A DNA stretch of 40,567 nucleotides. It comes from a virus. Numbering within the stretch: position 1 is the stretch's first letter; every line of letters begins with the position of its first letter. The notes under the pieces were generated by a model. That model was not told the DNA's origin and did no database searches. It saw only the letters and a list, made by a program, of their open reading frames with translations. Position numbers and translations under genes: made by a program. The stretch lies in the IMG/VR virus record IMGVR_UViG_3300033551_000014, positions 1-40,567 of that record. The stretch is one strand, 5' to 3'. Positions 1,413-39,521 of this stretch are shown one piece after another.

Positions 1413-1615
1413 TGGACGACAACAACGTAATTCCAATGCCACTGCCTTCGCTTCGAAACATGAGCACGGAACAGCTTAAGCGGTTTGTAGGCAGTAACCC
1501 TCGTAAATGGGCGAAAGCCTTTCTGGAAATTTATGAAGCTGATGAGGATGCTGTGATGAATGAGGATTGGGTAACGGCATGGTTCACGGCGGCTATGGAG
1601 GCAGCAAAGGAATGA
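1409..1615 (+). CDS. Small hypothetical protein
   Basis: This 68-residue protein is unrecognised. The start at 1409 has a strong purine-rich ribosome site (GAGAGGA) and an ATGA overlap with the upstream gene. The C-terminal half is acidic and helical. It is coupled by ATGA to the gcrA homologue downstream, so the two proteins are probably made together. Confidence 0.7.
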   Translation: MMDDNNVIPMPLPSLRNMSTEQLKRFVGSNPRKWAKAFLEIYEADEDAVMNEDWVTAWFTAAMEAAKE

Positions 1616-2184
1616 ACCCTAAGATCGTAGACTGGGAATCTCCGGGGCGCATCGACAAGCTGAAGGAAATGTGGGCCATTGGATACTCGGCCCTGCAAAT
1701 AGCGGACGCACTCGGAATACCAGGGAAGAAGAACGCAGTCATTGGAAAGGCCAATCGTCTCAATCTCGGCGCTCATCCGAATGGACATGCTTACTACAGA
1801 GCTACCGAAAGGGCTCGCAGACTAAAGGAACGCACTGAAAGCAAAGCCAAGAGGCATAGGGAAATGGATGGGTCACTCAGCCGCTCTAAATCATCTGGAC
1901 CAGTTCGTAAGCGTAAGCCTCCAAAGCCTGATGTTGTGATTGAGAAGGTAGTGGAGCGCAGGGCGTCGATTGATGGCCCTAGCATGAAGCCAGATTATCG
2001 GTTCCAGCGCTCTAAGGCATGGGAGGCTTTGGAGGGTAGCAATCCGGTGCCGCTAGAGAAGTTGGGACGTGGGGAATGCAAATGGCCCCTGAATGGACCT
2101 AACGATACGCATCTGTTCTGCGCTCTGCCAGCATCAGATCGGTACTGTTCAACACACACATATCTATCGCATCCGAAAACGTGA
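1612..2184 (+). CDS. gcrA: GcrA-family cell-cycle transcription regulator
   Basis: This 190-residue protein carries both ends of the GcrA family. The N-terminal helix-turn-helix-like block (about residues 14-51) contains KLKEMWAIGYSALQIADALG and NAVIGKANRL, matching the family pattern of LW--G-SA-QIA--LG and NAVIGK-HRL. The C-terminal block (about 152-190) has the Cys-Trp-Pro, Phe-Cys and Tyr-Cys-His residues of the sigma70-contacting region. The middle is Lys/Arg-rich and poorly conserved. GcrA in Alphaproteobacteria binds RNA polymerase sigma70 and acts at GANTC sites methylated by CcrM. I place the start at 1612 (ATGA overlap, AAAGGA site). A phage copy could redirect host transcription or drive later phage promoters. 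No CcrM-type methyltransferase was seen in the window. Confidence 0.9.
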   Translation: MNPKIVDWESPGRIDKLKEMWAIGYSALQIADALGIPGKKNAVIGKANRLNLGAHPNGHAYYRATERARRLKERTESKAKRHREMDGSLSRSKSSGPVRKRKPPKPDVVIEKVVERRASIDGPSMKPDYRFQRSKAWEALEGSNPVPLEKLGRGECKWPLNGPNDTHLFCALPASDRYCSTHTYLSHPKT

Positions 2185-7256: not shown

Positions 7257-8639
7257 CTAGTAGCCATAGAACATTTCCGTCATGCCTGAGATATTGTTGA
7301 TCTTGCCAACTCTCAGATTTGCGTTAATGGCCGTATCATTCACATAGACGATAGGCGGCTTTACCGTTCTGGTATCCTCAACGGTGAGCGTTCCGATATT
7401 CACGCAACTCTTGATCCCTGCCTTGCCAACCAAGGAAACCACGCTGCTATCGCCGCTGTTGAACGTGTGAGCATGTCCAATCCGAACAATGGACGCCACG
7501 CCCTGGTTCGCAACAGCGCTGTCATTGACAACGATCGGTGCGGAAGGAGAGCGGGCCTGTAGATGATCAATATCCAGATCGCCGCCAAGAACCTGCACAG
7601 CATAATGGCCAACGTTCTCTATGCTGAGATTACCGAACCGCGCAGATGGCTTATTGGGGCTTGTACCCTTCAGTCTGAGCAGACCGCTGCCCAGAACATT
7701 GCCGCTAAGGGTCGCTTCTGAAACAACGAGCTTTGCACCATGTCCCGGCGATATGGGCTTATTCAACCCTCGGACATTCATCGACCCTATAGAAATCATG
7801 CCGCCATTATGAATCCACGGCTCCACTGTTCCGTTAGCGACGAAATCGAGATTGAGGCTTCCGACATGCAGTTTAAAGTCATCGGAATCGACTGCCTTGA
7901 TAGATGACCCAGCATCAAGCCCCGACCCCTTCATGGATAGATAGCCGATGTTTGCTGTGAACCGACGCGATCCGGTATAATCATCGGGCTCGATATCGAG
8001 GCAATGGCGGTCTGTATCGTCGGGAGTTCCACCAAACAGGGACGCGCCGCCCTGCGTGTTATCCAGAGTTGCCGTACCGATATGCACCCTATCAGCATAG
8101 TGCCAGACAAGGTTCTTTCGCCCCGCCGTATGTGCCTTCAGCCGATGAATGACGATATTGTCGGAGAACTGCGTTGTTTCATTATCCCCGCCGATAAAGA
8201 CGTTATCACCCCGCGCATTGAAGGCAATGAGTTCGTCAATTTCCAGCCCATGCACATTGAAGATGAAGGCGCAGTGCATATGCTCGTTATTGTTCGATGC
8301 GATTTCAGGTACTGAACCATCAAGGCTTAGATCGCCACGAATGCGGATATTTTCGGATAGGGAATATCCCTTGCCAATGGATAGGAGACGAGTCCAAGAA
8401 CTAGCGCCGGGAGCCAGCTTAAGCTTAGTGTTCTTGCAATGGATATCGACGTTGCTAGGAACAAGGAAAGCCCATGCATTCGAGCCATCCTGACAGACGT
8501 AAAGCGTCTCGCCCTCGCACTCCATGCTGACAGGCTTCCCTGTCTGCGCATAAGCCATAAGGTCTTTGAATGCCTGCACATTAGTAGCGGCGGCTGAAGG
8601 GTCGTTATAGATGGCGCCGTATTCAGTGATGTGCTTCAA
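7257..8639 (-). CDS. Tailspike, beta-helix type
   Basis: This 460-residue protein begins with the pectate-lyase-like capping region common in phage tailspikes (YGAIYNDPSAAATNVQAF), then a long series of short strands with many Asn, Gly and Ile-x-Ile patterns, as in a right-handed parallel beta-helix. Its place directly after the tail-fibre gene suggests it is the receptor-binding or polysaccharide-degrading tip. The catalytic residues cannot be assigned by eye. Confidence 0.72.
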   Translation of the reverse strand: MKHITEYGAIYNDPSAAATNVQAFKDLMAYAQTGKPVSMECEGETLYVCQDGSNAWAFLVPSNVDIHCKNTKLKLAPGASSWTRLLSIGKGYSLSENIRIRGDLSLDGSVPEIASNNNEHMHCAFIFNVHGLEIDELIAFNARGDNVFIGGDNETTQFSDNIVIHRLKAHTAGRKNLVWHYADRVHIGTATLDNTQGGASLFGGTPDDTDRHCLDIEPDDYTGSRRFTANIGYLSMKGSGLDAGSSIKAVDSDDFKLHVGSLNLDFVANGTVEPWIHNGGMISIGSMNVRGLNKPISPGHGAKLVVSEATLSGNVLGSGLLRLKGTSPNKPSARFGNLSIENVGHYAVQVLGGDLDIDHLQARSPSAPIVVNDSAVANQGVASIVRIGHAHTFNSGDSSVVSLVGKAGIKSCVNIGTLTVEDTRTVKPPIVYVNDTAINANLRVGKINNISGMTEMFYGY

Positions 8640-10083: not shown

Positions 10084-11613
10084 CTAGCCCGAAATACTAG
10101 AAGCGCTGCCGCTATAGGACGAAAGCCCTGTGCGTCCGGTAATTCTATCCTCTAGCGTTGGGGCGCGCTGCGTAAGGGCGTTATAGGCCTGTGCCTGAGA
10201 CATTCCCTGAGCCATCAGCGATTGAATAGGCGTCATGGGCTGGGGACGGGGGGCGCTGTACGATCCTGCACCGTTTACCGTTACCCTGAGCGGCGAAGAC
10301 TGTGCGGCCATCCGTGGCATAGCCTGCGGGGTGCGCATGGGCGCAATATCTGGCCTTCGACGCGGCAAAGGCACGGCAGACATAGGAGAAGGCACAACCT
10401 GAATAGGCGGCTGGTTCAACGGTACGAAGCTAGGCTGGACAATCGGGTTTGGAACTAGGCGGTTTGGAATGAAACCGGGCTGATTGAATACCGGAGCCAT
10501 CTGCGTTGCAACGCGCTCACCTAGAGCCGTATTCGCCGCATAGTTAGAATCCCTGGCGCGTGGATTAAATGGCTGGGGAGCCGTTACCGCTGTGGCCTGC
10601 TGGGCAGTAGGCACAGATGGCAAAGCCCGCTCTACGTTGCTCTGTGTGACCGTAAGCGATGCTCTGCGTGCTGCGTCATTGATCTGTGCCGAAGTTGGGT
10701 TGGGCATAGAACTGGCAGTGAATGGAACCGACTGCACAACACGAGTGGTTGGAGGCTGTCCAATATTAGACGGCGGGAGTTCAGGAAGGCGAACACGAGC
10801 GGGGGAAGGTGTAAGGGAGCCAAGGCCACCCGTTACCGTTGTCGGCGTCATATCCGGGATATGGTACGAGTAGATATTGCTGCCGTCTGCGGTGAGACGT
10901 GGCGTGACGGCGTTCTGCGTAGCCGCGATCATATCGACAGCACGAGTTGCATTCACATTCCCACGCTGCGCATTTACAGCGGCCATGGAAGGGGTGACGA
11001 TATCGGGCGCTGATGGCCTGCGCTGGGGCAGAGGAGGCGGAAGTGGCGTAACCTGCGCCATTTGAGCCGATGCGCTCATGCGAGGGTCACGCATCTGTCC
11101 AAGATCGTCGGACATGGTTCGGGGCGTAGGAGCCACACGGAGGGGCGGCGTCGTGTCCTGAAGGCTGGCGACGACATTGGGGATTTCGCCGGGAGGAACA
11201 GGGCGCGTTGGATAATAGAGATGGCCGTTACGCTCGATAGTCCCGTACTTGTTCTGACTATCGTGGAAAGGCGACTTAACCGATGGCGTCTTGTAGAACA
11301 GCGCACCGCCCGTATAGTCAGGGCGCGTTCCGCTCAGAACAAGATCAAGGGCTCGCTCACCGCTCTTATAGGTGTCGGAGCTGGTGGAGAACTGGCTAGG
11401 GTTGTTTCCCCCTGCACTTGTCGGGTTCCAGGCGCTAAACTCATTAGGCTGAAGAGCGGCAGCAGCAGGATCGGCGGGGAAGTCACCCGAATTGGCGCGA
11501 TTGAGAATGACCTGAATAACATCGGCCATACCCTCGACGCCTTCACCCCTAGCTTCACCAAGGGCCGTGCGGATAAGAATGTCACGCTGGTACGGAGTTA
11601 GTTCAGTGGCCAT
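10084..11613 (-). CDS. Virion-associated SleB-type cell wall hydrolase
   Basis: Residues about 8-135 of this 509-residue protein match the SleB/Hydrolase_2 family: IRTALGEARGEG with the likely catalytic Glu20, MADVIQVILNRANSGDFP, the QPNEFSAWNP block and TGGALFYKTP. These enzymes cut peptidoglycan. The remaining 370 residues are Pro/Gln/Ala-rich low-complexity sequence. A large protein of this type among ejection genes is more likely a virion enzyme opening the wall during DNA entry than the lysis enzyme, since a GH19 endolysin is encoded separately. Confidence 0.83.
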   Translation of the reverse strand: MATELTPYQRDILIRTALGEARGEGVEGMADVIQVILNRANSGDFPADPAAAALQPNEFSAWNPTSAGGNNPSQFSTSSDTYKSGERALDLVLSGTRPDYTGGALFYKTPSVKSPFHDSQNKYGTIERNGHLYYPTRPVPPGEIPNVVASLQDTTPPLRVAPTPRTMSDDLGQMRDPRMSASAQMAQVTPLPPPLPQRRPSAPDIVTPSMAAVNAQRGNVNATRAVDMIAATQNAVTPRLTADGSNIYSYHIPDMTPTTVTGGLGSLTPSPARVRLPELPPSNIGQPPTTRVVQSVPFTASSMPNPTSAQINDAARRASLTVTQSNVERALPSVPTAQQATAVTAPQPFNPRARDSNYAANTALGERVATQMAPVFNQPGFIPNRLVPNPIVQPSFVPLNQPPIQVVPSPMSAVPLPRRRPDIAPMRTPQAMPRMAAQSSPLRVTVNGAGSYSAPRPQPMTPIQSLMAQGMSQAQAYNALTQRAPTLEDRITGRTGLSSYSGSASSISG

Positions 11614-11881
11614 TGACGTTTTCCCAAGCTAGGGCAGATTTATCACGAATGACCAACGGCGTAAGCCCCCGAACGCCTATTACAGCGTCGAGGGCTTTAA
11701 CCATTAGCGAGAGCGTGGTATGGGGGTTGTTGCAAGTGGCGGTTTTCCCGACCCCACCTGCCGACTGACGAAAGCCACTTCGTCCAGTGAGGCTATAACT
11801 AGCACCCGATCCGCTTAGTTTCAAGCCATCATTGCCCAAAGAGCCAGTAGTCCGTCGCAAGCCATGCGAAAAGGACGTGCT
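11614..11881. other. Gene-poor stretch before the inverted cassette
   Basis: This stretch separates the leftward SleB gene from the rightward gene at 11882. A leftward frame ending at 11603 in an overlap with the SleB start reads plausibly (the last 33 codons, from ATG 11704, look protein-like), but it lacks a ribosome site and runs on into the antisense of the + gene. It could be a short coupled leader gene or a gene fragment left by insertion of the cassette. Confidence 0.3.
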
Positions 11882-12292
11882 ATGGGTAAAGACCGATTTA
11901 AGCGAGCGAACGGCGCCAAACATTGGGTGCAACTTGAGCACTACCTGCTCGAATGCGCGGCATGGAAGGCCCTGACGCCTAATGCCCGGATCGTCTACAT
12001 TGAGATCAAGAAGCGATACAACGGACGCAATAACGGCATGCTGGCCTTGAGCAGTCGTGACGCTGGCGATGCGATCAATGCTTCTCATAACACCGGAGCC
12101 CGCGCGTTGAGGGAATTGGTAGAGGCAGGATTTCTGGTCATCTGCACCGGAAGCTCATTCAACCGGAAAGTCAGGCTAGCAACAGAATATCGAATTACCG
12201 AGGCCAGAGATGATCGTGACGGGTTCGATCCGTTGCCGACAAAGGACTTCATGAAATCAAAACACAGTGGCATGGGTGACACCAAACGGTAA
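11882..12292 (+). CDS. Winged-helix replication-initiator-like protein
   Basis: This 136-residue protein has the fold pattern of the helix-turn-helix domain shared by plasmid and phage replication proteins: LPHYLL-like helix (VQLEHYLLECAAWKALTPNA), then RIVYIEIKKRYNGRNNGMLALS, a recognition region (DAGDAINASHNTGARALREL), and a beta wing ending in YRIT. I start at 11882 behind AAGGAC. It is the only sizeable rightward gene among the virion genes and is followed at once by three iteron-like repeats, so DNA binding at its own 3' side is likely. Replication or autoregulation are both possible. Confidence 0.7.
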   Translation: MGKDRFKRANGAKHWVQLEHYLLECAAWKALTPNARIVYIEIKKRYNGRNNGMLALSSRDAGDAINASHNTGARALRELVEAGFLVICTGSSFNRKVRLATEYRITEARDDRDGFDPLPTKDFMKSKHSGMGDTKR

Positions 12293-12402
12293 CGTACATG
12301 ACATACCACGACGCATTTCTCGTCCAAAATTAACCCCCTCGTAACGCACATGACACTTAATGGTTGAAATGACGGCTTTCATAAGTAACGTGGGTATGAC
12401 AC
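12289..12402 (+). repeat. Three iteron-like direct repeats
   Basis: Copies at 12289-12304, 12341-12356 and 12385-12402 share GTAACG followed by a variable stretch and ATGACAY. The first is GTAACGTACATGACAT and overlaps the stop codon of the winged-helix gene; the third has a two-base insertion. Spacings are 52 and 44 bases, about five and four helical turns, so the sites could face one side of the helix. They are candidate binding sites for the protein encoded immediately upstream. Confidence 0.6.
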
Positions 12403-12449
12403 ATATTGATCTACACCACTTCCCACAGCGGGCAACGGAGGATGAGAGC

Positions 12450-12548
12450 GTGCAGATGAACAACCGAAAGACAGCCGAGTGGTGGTTTGGCATTATCTGC
12501 CTAGCCCTGCTGTTTGCATTTATGGGCTGGTATCGAACCATTTCCTAG
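12450..12548 (+). CDS. One-helix membrane peptide
   Basis: A GTG start at 12450 lies eight bases after GGAGG; an ATG lies two codons further on. The product of 32 residues is a short polar head and a single strong hydrophobic helix (WFGIICLALLFAFMGW). It ends by overlapping, tail to tail, the leftward gene at 12545. It may be part of the inverted cassette with the winged-helix gene. Role unknown. Confidence 0.5.
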   Translation: MQMNNRKTAEWWFGIICLALLFAFMGWYRTIS

Positions 12549-14278
12549 CTTCCACCCAAAAGAGCACCGCGAGCAGCCAGTTCGGCAGCGGTAATGCCGC
12601 TCAATAGCGACTGCGGAACGGGGATAGGTGCTGCAATTGGAAGATTGGGCGTAGCAACGGCCTGAGCGGCTCGATTGGCTGCATTAACGCCCATTGTTTC
12701 ACTAGCCTTTCGTGCACCAGCACCTACACCGGCTGCGAGGAGGCCACCAATTGGTCCGAGTGGCGTCATAGAACCAGCAGTCACGCCAGCTACGCCACCC
12801 ATCCAGTTCGGCGCTCCGCTATTGCTGAAGCCAAACTTCCCCAGGAGCGTAACAAGGTTAGAGCCCGCCGTTCCATTCGCGACCTTTTCGAGTTCGGTTC
12901 GTTCCGCCGCATTGAATAGCTTACGAGTTGACGGATTGCGAAGAAGGGCTTGAAACTGAAGGCGCAGACCGTTTTCCATGCCGGATTTGTAGGTTTCAGC
13001 CTTTTGAATTGCTTCTTCGATCAGCCCAACCTTAGAAGCACGGCTCCACGTCGAGATGCCTCGCATAAGGCTGTTGGCCGCTTGCGTAGGGTCTGCGCCT
13101 CCAAGAATGTCTGCTGGCTTCAGCGACTGAATGAAGTTGTCCAATTCGGAAACGACTTTCGAACCCAAAGCGGCGTCTCGACCCTGAGCGCTGCCTGCAA
13201 CCTTACCGGCAAGCTGACGAATAAGGTGCAGGTCTTTCATGTCGATTGCCACACCCTGAGAAGTTTCATCGGCAATTCGCATGAGGGTGGACAGAAGGCC
13301 GGTCGCCTGCGGATCATTATCCGCGTTGATGCGAAGCTTGTTGGCAAACTGCTGTACATCGCCAAGGAAGCGGAAATATGCGTTGTCACTGATGGCGAGC
13401 GGCGTCCCACCGGTAGCAGCATCAAACATACTGCTGGCAGCGCTGCGCAGGCTTGCTGCGTTTGGGGCGCCTTGTAGTGCATTGGAGGTCATGCGGCTCT
13501 GTACCGCCCGCGTGGCGGCGTCTGCTACACCTTCGGCGGTTTTGCGAACTCCCGCCCCTACAGCAGGGATAGCGCCACCAACCAAGGCCGGGAGAACAGC
13601 ATTCTGGGTCGCTTCAAGAGGCGCTTGCCCCCGAACCATATTGTCCGCCGCCGTGAGGCCAAGAGTAGAGCCAAGCCCGCTTGCAATACGCGCGCCGGTT
13701 GATCCAGTGACGCCAAGGGCAGTTGAACCAATCGTCTCGCCACCTGCCAGCGTGAGGGCAGCAGGACTAAGCCCTTGCGCAACGGCACGCGGGGCGCCAG
13801 CAACCCCAAATGCGGCTAAGTTAGCTGCGGCAGAACCGGCAAGGTTGGCGATAGGATTGCCCTTTGCCAATTCTTCGCGACGACGACGAAGCCCTTCAAC
13901 CGTTTGTCCGTAGTCTCCGCCAGTCAGAACAGACCCAGCGCCAAGAATGGCGTCAGATGTATTTTGAAGCAGCGGGCCTACAACAGGAACCGTATTTATG
14001 CCAGCCAGCGTCGTTGCAATTGAGCCTTCGAGGTTTGTTGGCGCCGCTCGCGGCTCACTACGCGGTGCAATTGGTCCAGATGCAAACTGAGAGGCCTGAG
14101 AGGCTGCGGATAGCGCATCGTTGAATGCGGGCGATGGGTTTGCGGTCCCTGGCGTCTGCCCAGAAATACCCAGCGATGCCGCAATCTCGTCCACCGTGGC
14201 CTGTTGCTGTTCGGGAGACATGCGAAGAAACTCATCGCCAACCGTTACAGTCTGATTGCCGATTGTGAGTTTTGCCAT
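12545..14278 (-). CDS. Putative internal virion / DNA ejection protein (577 aa)
   Basis: This Ala/Gly-rich 577-residue protein lies in the position of the ejection genes of P22-like phages. Long hydrophobic Gly/Ala segments (around residues 155-240 and near 500-530) alternate with helical regions, as expected for a protein that forms part of the conduit through the host envelope. The N-terminus (TIGNQTVTVGDEFLRMSPEQQQATVDEI) resembles the start found on several alphaproteobacterial phage internal proteins. Function is inferred from composition and place. Confidence 0.65.
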   Translation of the reverse strand: MAKLTIGNQTVTVGDEFLRMSPEQQQATVDEIAASLGISGQTPGTANPSPAFNDALSAASQASQFASGPIAPRSEPRAAPTNLEGSIATTLAGINTVPVVGPLLQNTSDAILGAGSVLTGGDYGQTVEGLRRRREELAKGNPIANLAGSAAANLAAFGVAGAPRAVAQGLSPAALTLAGGETIGSTALGVTGSTGARIASGLGSTLGLTAADNMVRGQAPLEATQNAVLPALVGGAIPAVGAGVRKTAEGVADAATRAVQSRMTSNALQGAPNAASLRSAASSMFDAATGGTPLAISDNAYFRFLGDVQQFANKLRINADNDPQATGLLSTLMRIADETSQGVAIDMKDLHLIRQLAGKVAGSAQGRDAALGSKVVSELDNFIQSLKPADILGGADPTQAANSLMRGISTWSRASKVGLIEEAIQKAETYKSGMENGLRLQFQALLRNPSTRKLFNAAERTELEKVANGTAGSNLVTLLGKFGFSNSGAPNWMGGVAGVTAGSMTPLGPIGGLLAAGVGAGARKASETMGVNAANRAAQAVATPNLPIAAPIPVPQSLLSGITAAELAARGALLGGS

Positions 14279-32628: not shown

Positions 32629-33015
32629 TCAAGCACTAATTCCATATTTCTCCCACACCCTCTTTGCCTCTCCGGGCATGAGGTTTAGAACGGCTTCGAT
32701 CATTTCGGGCTTGTTCCCCGCAAGTGCCAGTTGCAGGATTTGCCTCTCCCGCTTGCCCATTGGATAGTCCATTTCAGGCGTGTGATTGGCTGGCCGTGGC
32801 TTTGCGTATCGCCCCGCGTCGTCTCTAGGCCGCTCAGGAATAGGCAGGAGGGCCAAAGCTCGGTTTATGTGGCCGGTATTGCCAGTTGAGCCTAAACCCG
32901 CTGTATGAACGCCTGTGGCCACCAAATCCGTATTCTGTCCCATCTCGATCCTCCTGATAAACTGATATTCGACCATTCCGCCTTCTTGTGGGGTGTAAGG
33001 TCTTAGTCTGGGCAT
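32629..33015 (-). CDS. Hypothetical protein with C-terminal helix-turn-helix-like region
   Basis: This 128-residue protein starts behind AGGAGG in an overlap. The last 50 residues (GKRERQILQLALAGNKPEMI, then NLMPGEAKRVW) resemble a sigma-region-4/LuxR-like helix-turn-helix. It could be a DNA-binding regulator, but this rests on pattern alone. Confidence 0.55.
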   Translation of the reverse strand: MPRLRPYTPQEGGMVEYQFIRRIEMGQNTDLVATGVHTAGLGSTGNTGHINRALALLPIPERPRDDAGRYAKPRPANHTPEMDYPMGKRERQILQLALAGNKPEMIEAVLNLMPGEAKRVWEKYGISA

Positions 33016-33578
33016 TCGTCATCCTCCTGGATATGGACTCCTAGCTTGGTTGCCAGCGTCCGGCTTATCTTCACCTGCTCGGAAATGGTCAGGAACTCCC
33101 CCGCAAAGTGCTGATCGGATCGCCTGATTGCCTCCTTGGCAGCTAGTTCCTGCTCAGGCGTTCGTGTCTTTGGATTGATCTTCTCCTCGAAAGCCTCAAC
33201 CATGCTTCTTACCCTCGCCATGGATTCAGGGGTTCTGGCAGCTTCTATGTCTGCGTCGTGGTCCCGTTGCTCTATCTGTCTTACTGCGGCATTGTGCATG
33301 CTCTTCGGGCCGTTAAGATGGCTTTGGACGGAACGAAGGTGTGACGAGAACTGCGCTATATTCGGAGCCCATGTTCTGTTGACGCCCTCTACGCGACCGA
33401 ACAGGAAATCCTCGCACGTGTCGATAATTGCCCCGGTCGTGTACCCATCGCATGCCTCCAGATACATGGCGGCTAGTTTCTGTCCCTCCTCCGCATCATT
33501 TGGATTGTTCAGCGGCAAACGACAGGAGCGGAAAAGCCTCTCGAATGCCTTCGTCACCTTGTATGCGTCGTACGCCAT
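33003..33578 (-). CDS. Hypothetical protein next to replication gene
   Basis: This 191-residue protein is helical and charged. It overlaps the replication-type gene upstream by 83 bases in another frame, with a good GGAGAG site for the start at 33578. It follows a replication-type gene as a helicase loader (lambda P-like) would, but I see no ATPase or DnaC motif. Role unassigned. Confidence 0.6.
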   Translation of the reverse strand: MAYDAYKVTKAFERLFRSCRLPLNNPNDAEEGQKLAAMYLEACDGYTTGAIIDTCEDFLFGRVEGVNRTWAPNIAQFSSHLRSVQSHLNGPKSMHNAAVRQIEQRDHDADIEAARTPESMARVRSMVEAFEEKINPKTRTPEQELAAKEAIRRSDQHFAGEFLTISEQVKISRTLATKLGVHIQEDDECPD

Positions 33579-33867
33579 TATCGCTCTCCATCTGGGCTGC
33601 TAGGTTTCCGAATATCGATCCTACTGATGCAGGTGATAGTTTCCGTGTGTCCTGCAACTCATCCTCCCAACATCCAGCCCGTAGCCATGAGGCAGGGTGT
33701 TTGATGTATTGATGTTCAGTGTTTCTGGTGTGAATGGCATAGCGCTCAACGCCTGCCATTATCTCTTGGTGTGTGGCTGACTTCAGGGCCTTTTCGTAGG
33801 CCTTCTTGGCTTCTAACTTGGCCACCCGACGCGGATAGCATTGCCAGAACGTGTCGAAGCTCATCAT
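33496..33867 (-). CDS. Replication-protein-like C-terminal domain
   Basis: This 123-residue protein matches the C-terminal part of phage O-type replication proteins: FDTFWQCYPRRVAKLEAKKA near residues 4-23, EIMAGVERYAIHT, QYIKHPASWLRAGCWEDE near 53-70. The N-terminal DNA-binding domain of a full O protein is absent, so it is a short form. Such proteins recruit the host helicase at an origin. Two ATGs (33867, 33864) overlap the previous stop. Confidence 0.65.
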   Translation of the reverse strand: MMSFDTFWQCYPRRVAKLEAKKAYEKALKSATHQEIMAGVERYAIHTRNTEHQYIKHPASWLRAGCWEDELQDTRKLSPASVGSIFGNLAAQMESDNGVRRIQGDEGIREAFPLLSFAAEQSK

Positions 33868-38810: not shown

Positions 38811-39019
38811 GTGACGGTCTAGTTCGCGAGGAAGATTGGCTTAGGAACGACTGGGCTAAACGCCAGCGCATCGCCACGATTGCCAGAACGATTGACTACT
38901 ACCAATCCTGCTTGAATGCAGTTCCAGCGTTTACCGAGAACCGTAGCACAATCGAGAGCTATCTCAAAGGCTTCGACAACGCATGCGCCGATATGCTGGA
39001 GGTTCTAAATGAGCAATAA
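38807..39019 (+). CDS. Small helical hypothetical protein
   Basis: This 70-residue protein (EEDWLRNDWAKRQRIATIAR) is helical and coupled upstream by ATGA. It overlaps the Gp157 gene start by 11 bases. Unrecognised. Confidence 0.62.
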   Translation: MSDGLVREEDWLRNDWAKRQRIATIARTIDYYQSCLNAVPAFTENRSTIESYLKGFDNACADMLEVLNEQ

Positions 39020-39521
39020 GTACATCGCATTGGACGCCGATGAGGTTGCCCGTCAGGTCGAACGCCTCTTCACCGAATATCATGATGAAGTGGCTGATGA
39101 CGAAGCCCTGCGTATGGACCTCCTTGATGGCGAAACCGGCTTCTTCGAGATCATAGACAAGGTGCTTGATCATCGTCAGGAGGCGCTAGGAATGGCGTCT
39201 ATGACCAAGGAGCGGGCTACCGGCATGAAGCTACGCATAGACCGCTACGAGAGCCGTGCAGAGGCTATGACAAAGCTGATCATGAACCTGATGGAAGTTG
39301 CGGGCTTCGAGCGCGTAGAGCGTCCTGAAGCCACAATCTCTCGGACCAAGGGGCGCGATAGTGTGGAGATTACAGATTTGGAGGCAATTCCTCAGGGATA
39401 TGCCAAATTCGAGAAGAAGCCAGACAAGACAGCGATCAAAGCGGCTATCGATGCTGGGGCTGATATTCCTGGGGCTTCCGTCAAGAAGGGCGAACCTTCA
39501 ATCGTGGTGCGAACAAAATGA
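39009..39521 (+). CDS. Gp157 family protein
   Basis: This 170-residue protein matches the siphovirus Gp157 family: a helical coiled first half ending in IDRYESRAEAMTKLI, then the beta-rich end with ERPEATISRTKG, then KKPDKTAIKAAIDAGADIPG, the K-DK-AIKEALK-G--V-G pattern typical of the family. First linked to phage resistance in Streptococcus phage; commonly located with recombination genes. Its exact activity is not established. Confidence 0.85.
   Translation: MSNKYIALDADEVARQVERLFTEYHDEVADDEALRMDLLDGETGFFEIIDKVLDHRQEALGMASMTKERATGMKLRIDRYESRAEAMTKLIMNLMEVAGFERVERPEATISRTKGRDSVEITDLEAIPQGYAKFEKKPDKTAIKAAIDAGADIPGASVKKGEPSIVVRTK

Follow-up and report, generated by a model that had tools for sequence, protein, structure and literature searches.

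A candidate minimal replicon inserted among the virion genes of a podovirus-like phage, with homologs in alphaproteobacterial prophages and small integrative elements

Introduction

In phage lambda, the iterons of the replication origin lie inside gene O and are followed by an AT-rich segment, and two iterons beside this segment suffice for unwinding (PMC7466680). The iterons of RepA_N initiators, including RepA of the Vibrio cholerae satellite PLE, are semi-palindromic (PMC7145576), and the initiator domain of PLE covaries with its origin (PMC8263062). Here, we describe a cassette in a 40,567-base IMG/VR virus record (IMGVR_UViG_3300033551_000014), referred to below as the window, and compare this cassette with its homologs and with these systems.

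The cassette and its relatives share with lambda O and its origin the order of winged-helix domain, iterons and AT-rich segment, the sites lying inside or just past the gene. However, the C-terminal part of O that meets P is absent here, the AT-rich part is short, and the gaps between the sites are 22, 32, 44 and 53 bp. The winged-helix N-terminal fold is likewise common to the RepA_N proteins (staphylococcal pSK41 and pTZ2162, and PLE RepA), and further similarities are the link between initiator and integrase in the satellite and the joint change of domain and iterons; semi-palindromic iterons are clear in many relatives of the cassette but weak in the window. Unlike RepA_N, the present family is alphaproteobacterial, lacks the C-terminal host-specific domain and a match to the Pfam RepA_N model, and combines a fixed multi-turn spacing with an adjoining AT-rich element. 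Because the C-terminal domain and the Pfam match that define these systems are missing, we do not place the module within either lambda O/ori or RepA_N.

Satellites provide another comparison. Relatives of the cassette in Rhodobacterales resemble PICMI, PICI and PLE in their size (3.9-8 kb), terminal integrase, replication-type module, variable cargo and lack of recognized particle genes, but integrate at tRNA 3' ends and have no known helper; the cassette in the window, in contrast to satellites, comes without an integrase. The similarity to Odn of phage ICP1 is that a phage carries the DNA-binding domain of a satellite initiator, but Odn is fused to a nuclease, whereas the domain described here stands alone with its own sites.

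Results and discussion

An insert among the virion genes

The portal protein encoded in the window is P22-like (PF16510, E 4e-199), and hence the phage is podovirus-like. A sequence-only reading of the window had placed a rightward winged-helix open reading frame between two leftward virion genes, an arrangement that we confirm:

10084-11613, minus strand: cell-wall hydrolase, the left-flanking virion gene (PF07486, E 9e-13; PHROG endolysin matches)
11636 to about 12440, no strand assigned: insert relative to related phages, about 0.8 kb, with an exact left edge and an approximate right edge
11882-12292, plus strand: winged-helix gene, 136 aa, initiator-type DNA-binding domain, with an AGGA ribosome-binding site upstream
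12450-12548, plus strand: one-helix membrane peptide, 32 aa from GTG; its L001 homolog occupies the corresponding position and points the same way (41% over 22 aa, E 6.6e-5)
12545-14278, minus strand: right-flanking gene of the virion block, with homologs at the equivalent position in L001, L002 and L010

The blastn identity to the nearest relative, L001 (92%), stops at 11635; the hydrolase of this phage shares 81% protein identity with that of the window. In L001 and in the more distant L002, about 40-50 bp separate the hydrolase start from the membrane-peptide gene. Given that identity ends at 11635 and that both relatives carry the membrane-peptide gene alone at this place, without the winged-helix gene and the array, a segment of about 0.8 kb is an insertion relative to related phages, as had been suspected. 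Its GC content is 0.52, compared with 0.58 in each flanking gene, its sole coding content is the winged-helix protein, and an assembly error at the junctions in the metagenomic data is unlikely. The membrane-peptide gene, which had been counted as part of the cassette, lies outside the insert: because L001 and L002 keep this gene without the rest (in L002 as a similar short rightward open reading frame), it is a resident of the phage lineage. The third repeat of the array overlaps the in-frame ATG of a 62-aa open reading frame, and the GTG at 12450, 8 nt after GGAGG, is the better and preferred start.

By profile search, the winged-helix protein is absent from eight related phage records, of which several are fragments and one, G002, is 40.6 kb long. 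In G002, which is close to the window in size, the gene occurs nowhere in the record, so that the lineage evidently can do without the cassette, and the idea that the cassette holds the phage origin is not borne out. The GC skew, dominated by gene direction, displays no clear switch at 12 kb.

The right-flanking gene has no family match in the PHROG, Pfam and defence/NCBIfam profile libraries; judged by its position, its product is possibly an ejection protein. This gene is mosaic, with approximately the first 260 residues of the product alone matching L001 7612-9765 (45%) and the middle part matched by L002 and L010. Elsewhere, the phage carries a gene for a GcrA-like cell-cycle regulator (1567-2184, plus strand; PF07750, E 2e-16), and the genes for NinB (368-763), a YbcO-like nuclease (996-1412) and a Gp157/Mu Gam-like protein (39009-39521, plus strand; PF05565) form a recombination module across the record ends.

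An initiator-type winged-helix protein without a C-terminal domain

The AlphaFold2 model of the 136-aa protein is good (pLDDT 82.5). By structure, it is most similar to N-terminal domains from RepA_N plasmid initiators (4pql, 5kbj, 4pt7 and 4pta) and next to DnaD; 4pql, 5kbj and 4pt7 head the Foldseek list (E 3.7e-3), only modestly above other winged helices. In VIA-align, 4pql (Z 8.2, rmsd 7.0, 104 aligned) and 4pt7 (Z 8.0, rmsd 6.0, 101 aligned) lead, and the family profile reaches the same RepA_N structure entries weakly (E 0.026-0.2). Weak PHROG matches (E about 1e-3) involve the N-terminal parts of replication-initiation, O-like and DnaD-like phage families; Pfam yields sub-threshold HTH_36 and HTH_Crp_2 matches alone, with the RepA_N model unmatched, and the defence and NCBIfam libraries yielded nothing useful. 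No solved lambda O structure appears in the Foldseek and VIA match lists, which excludes nothing. These fold scores are modest, and a winged helix by itself does not give function.

The aligned family proteins end 0-70 residues past the winged-helix domain, with the tail overlapping array sites, and the usual initiator C-terminal domain, the recruiter of the replisome, is missing from them. The nearest kin of the protein is found in a Devosia MAG (L023; 56% identity, pair support 99/97, dN 0.37, dS saturated).

A possible counterpart to the missing domain is encoded elsewhere in the window:

33496-33867, minus strand: stand-alone C-terminal half of a replication-initiation family (phrog_270 positions 179-271 of 383, E 4.8e-21)

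The winged-helix protein weakly matches positions 39-122 of the same phrog_270, and from these matches the two products could possibly constitute a split initiator. Adjoining 33496-33867 is a possible helicase-loader-like gene (33003-33578, minus strand); G002 has homologs of both.

Sites of changing sequence and conserved spacing

Exactly three matches to the pattern GTAACG-N2..6-ATGACA exist in the window (starting at 12289, 12341 and 12385), compared with 0.01 expected from shuffles, and this exact search agrees with the three repeats, 52 and 44 apart, of the sequence-only reading. From the family-wide spacing, a fourth, weak site was located at 12267:

12267-12281, plus strand: weak array site 0, GTGGCATGGGTGACA, 22 bp upstream of site 1
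12289-12303, plus strand: array site 1, GTAACGTACATGACA, exact pattern; overlaps the winged-helix stop codon
12341-12355, plus strand: array site 2, GTAACGCACATGACA, exact pattern; 52 bp past site 1
12385-12401, plus strand: array site 3, GTAACGTGGGTATGACA, exact pattern; 44 bp past site 2
12402-12418, plus strand: AT-rich element, CATATTGATCTACACCA, directly after site 3; counterpart of TATATACATCTAGCCA in relatives

The repeats of the window are imperfect dyads (GTAAC/ATGAC, 3 of 5 pairs) without the central A-tract on which RepA_N iterons often converge, whereas many relatives have clear dyads (GTCATGAAAACCGTGAC, CCCAAAAATTGGG). A blind scan of the window for three-site arrays ranks 12289 second, behind 13653 inside a gene. 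Thus, the window by itself is moderately significant, and it is the spacing across the family that carries the case.

Most homologous loci carry such an array, made up of four or five dyad-like sites close to where the gene ends. The site sequences vary by group: GTCAC-N7-GTGAC in Rhodobacterales, GTCAT-N7-ATGAC or GTGAC in Mesorhizobium-type loci, GTTCC-N7-GGAAC in L022, GTCCG-N7-CGGAC in L033 and AGTC-type in Devosia. The spacing, by contrast, is conserved: 22/52/44 in the window, 21/52/43 in Devosia, 22/53/44 in Rhodobacterales, and 22/32-33/32/44 and 23/32/22/44 in rhizobia. Each gap approximates a whole number of helical turns, about 2, 5 and 4 in the window. Lag analysis near the gene stop in 41 loci gave peaks at 22 (score 9.4), 44 (6.3), 32 (4.8), 76 and 53; control regions gave other, weaker peaks rather than this set. 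The spacing statistics leave out duplicates (L017, L019 and L061) and loci in which frames run on or are broken or the array is absent (L025, L035, L056, L057, L058 and L062). A generic dyad-cluster score separated the loci poorly (25 of 46 loci above 6 shuffles), and lag and anchor analyses were used instead.

Immediately past the last site comes a short AT-rich element of about 16 bp (TATATACATCTAGCCA in Rhodobacterales, CAGTATTATCTAGCCA in rhizobia, CATATTGATCTACACC in the window), the 3' half of which, CTAGCCAT, is conserved in sequence; it is possibly an unwinding element or a -10 region. In well-matched loci, the end codon of the winged-helix domain lies 145-187 nt from this element (162-169 nt in most Rhodobacterales, 154 in the window and 169 in Devosia), whereas in Rhodobacterales the stop codon precedes it by a variable 31 to 145 nt. 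The roughly fixed distance from domain to element despite the shifting stop implies that conservation of position serves the DNA rather than the tail of the protein. Three loci with the winged-helix gene (L030, L036 and L042) have no recognizable AT-rich element.

Distribution of the family

Searches of genomes, viral contigs and plasmids recovered over 40 homologous loci, nearly all of them in Alphaproteobacteria, with two recurring settings. In rhizobial prophages of 30-35 kb, the winged-helix gene is located between integrase/excisionase and terminase, an interval in which no other initiator was recognized in prophages L018 and L020. In Rhodobacterales, the gene resides in elements of 3.9-8.0 kb, where it lies between an integrase and a tRNA gene. 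In a search of 72,556 plasmid records, the gene was present on large replicons only; no free plasmid there has it as the only replication gene. Scans of the viral_contigs set with the single protein, or with the window and Devosia proteins together, detected no closely related phage protein, and named phages gave just one sub-significant match. We found no description of the family in open-licence papers, which is not proof of novelty.

A captured minimal replicon and the competing explanations

We consider it likely, with some reserve, that in this cassette the phage has captured a minimal theta-type replicon from a family spread over alphaproteobacterial prophages and small tRNA-integrated elements. 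This minimal-replicon reading follows from the combination of the lambda O order, RepA_N-like iterons and the precedent of domain-origin covariation in PLE; the initiator-like predicted fold and the family-wide array also lend support to the original suggestion that a replication-type DNA-binding protein is paired here with iterons. In its favor, too, is that prophages L018 and L020 have no other recognized initiator between integrase and terminase. Counting against it are the shortness of the AT-rich element, the missing C-terminal domain, the weak family matches, the poor dyads of the window, the lack in the plasmid collection searched of any plasmid with this gene as its only replication gene, and the three loci that have the gene but no recognizable element. 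The 136-aa protein would represent the DNA-binding domain of a RepA_N/DnaD/lambda-O-type initiator devoid of the C-terminal domain and would bind the sites at 12267, 12289, 12341 and 12385, probably as dimers. With these sites about 2, 5 and 4 helical turns apart, the bound proteins would all lie on the same side of the helix, and the dimers could strain or open the AT-rich element at 12402-12418 beside the last site, so providing origin activity. Because the C-terminal domain is absent, replisome or helicase loading would have to come from another protein, supplied by the host, by a helper phage or, here, perhaps by the product of 33496-33867. In this phage, the module may act as a second origin, may be a passive capture or may antagonize satellites.

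The main rival to the replicon reading is a regulator with its promoter, in which the protein, on its phased sites, would repress or activate transcription, the AT-rich element would be the -10 region, and the controlled gene would be the next one, namely, DUF6074 in rhizobia and the membrane peptide here. In agreement with this possibility, a -10-like sequence adjoins the last site at a fixed spacing, and the conserved half CTAGCCAT fits a promoter, or the site of another factor, as well as it fits an unwinding element. Moreover, the DUF6074 gene regularly begins soon downstream in rhizobial loci, two Rhodobacterales loci (L028 and L031) have a ribosome-binding site and an ATG shortly past the element, and winged-helix regulators are common among the fold matches. 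However, the best whole-domain fold matches are initiators, the position of the element is tied to the upstream gene rather than to the downstream one, and, in Rhodobacterales, the sequence diverges right past the element and the downstream genes vary. A promoter and terminator scan found nothing, in particular no sigma-70-like site, and few rightward genes were called near the element by a codon-usage gene finder, which is weak for such genes. On balance, we regard a transcription switch as doubtful, but both roles could coexist, and the cassette may be a self-regulated moron.

A different question is that of present use. That recombination with a satellite or a prophage brought in the module, which the phage now carries passively, is a serious possibility, if not the one that we would favor, and is compatible with identity as a replicon. 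The absence of the module from relatives, the GC content below that of both flanks, the weak site 0 with imperfect dyads, and the lack of any other viral contig containing the last site and the element by exact match (a search of viral_contigs, which possibly does not include the record of the window itself) all fit a relic. Conversely, the open reading frame is intact with a ribosome-binding site, 85 third-position versus 33 second-position differences separate it from the Devosia homolog, and all four sites keep the family spacing. The capture could also have been turned to use against satellites, with the DNA-binding domain of a satellite and its sites competing with satellite replication by a logic like that of ICP1 Odn. 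Related modules do occur in small satellite-like alphaproteobacterial elements, and a known phage took over the binding domain of a satellite initiator (PMC8263062); yet, no nuclease domain is present here, no satellite with matching sites was found, and the nearest element, L023, has different sites, which makes this use quite improbable. Least probable of all is that the repeats arose by chance next to an unrelated HTH gene. The sites in the window are short and imperfect, and the blind scan ranks one other place slightly higher, but three matches stand against 0.01 expected, and independent relatives with other site sequences have the same spacing.

Far more tentatively than for the cassette itself, the family might represent an undescribed, widespread class of minimal replicons. 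In such a class, a stand-alone initiator DNA-binding domain and helically phased iterons would form a mobile module in which the site sequences change and the geometry stays fixed. The module would be common to satellites and prophages and, by capture, to a phage of another type, where it would pair in trans with a separate C-terminal protein or act against satellites. If the replicon reading is right, Alphaproteobacteria would gain a very compact candidate origin module of about 0.5 kb with clear predictions, the fast turnover of site sequence at fixed spacing would be as expected under replicon competition, and a satellite-type replication module would sit inside the particle genes of a phage.

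Small tRNA-integrated elements in Rhodobacterales

In 13 of the 14 loci with a downstream tRNA gene, the 3' end of the tRNA recurs 5' of the integrase as a repeat of 14-26 nt, whereas only 2 of 67 random segments reach a length of 14 nt or more; these repeats bound the elements of 3.9-8.0 kb. Among the genes tested, unlike in known satellites, no primase or AlpA was recognized. These small tRNA-integrated elements (L028-L059), apparently an undescribed set in Rhodobacterales, look like a satellite-like group. The sequence-only reading had raised a satellite-like insertion for the window; this holds in part, in that homologs of the cassette reside in small satellite-like integrative elements, but the cassette itself has no integrase.

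A typical element, such as L045 3066-7476, in which the integrase was recognized, consists of the integrase gene, a gene for a protein of about 250 aa, the winged-helix gene with its array, and cargo. In many elements, the last gene encodes a protein of about 210 aa that starts with MGGxGSGR and has no Pfam match. In L041, the cargo beside the array includes a gene for a patatin-like phospholipase (7335-7895), a possible anti-phage gene.
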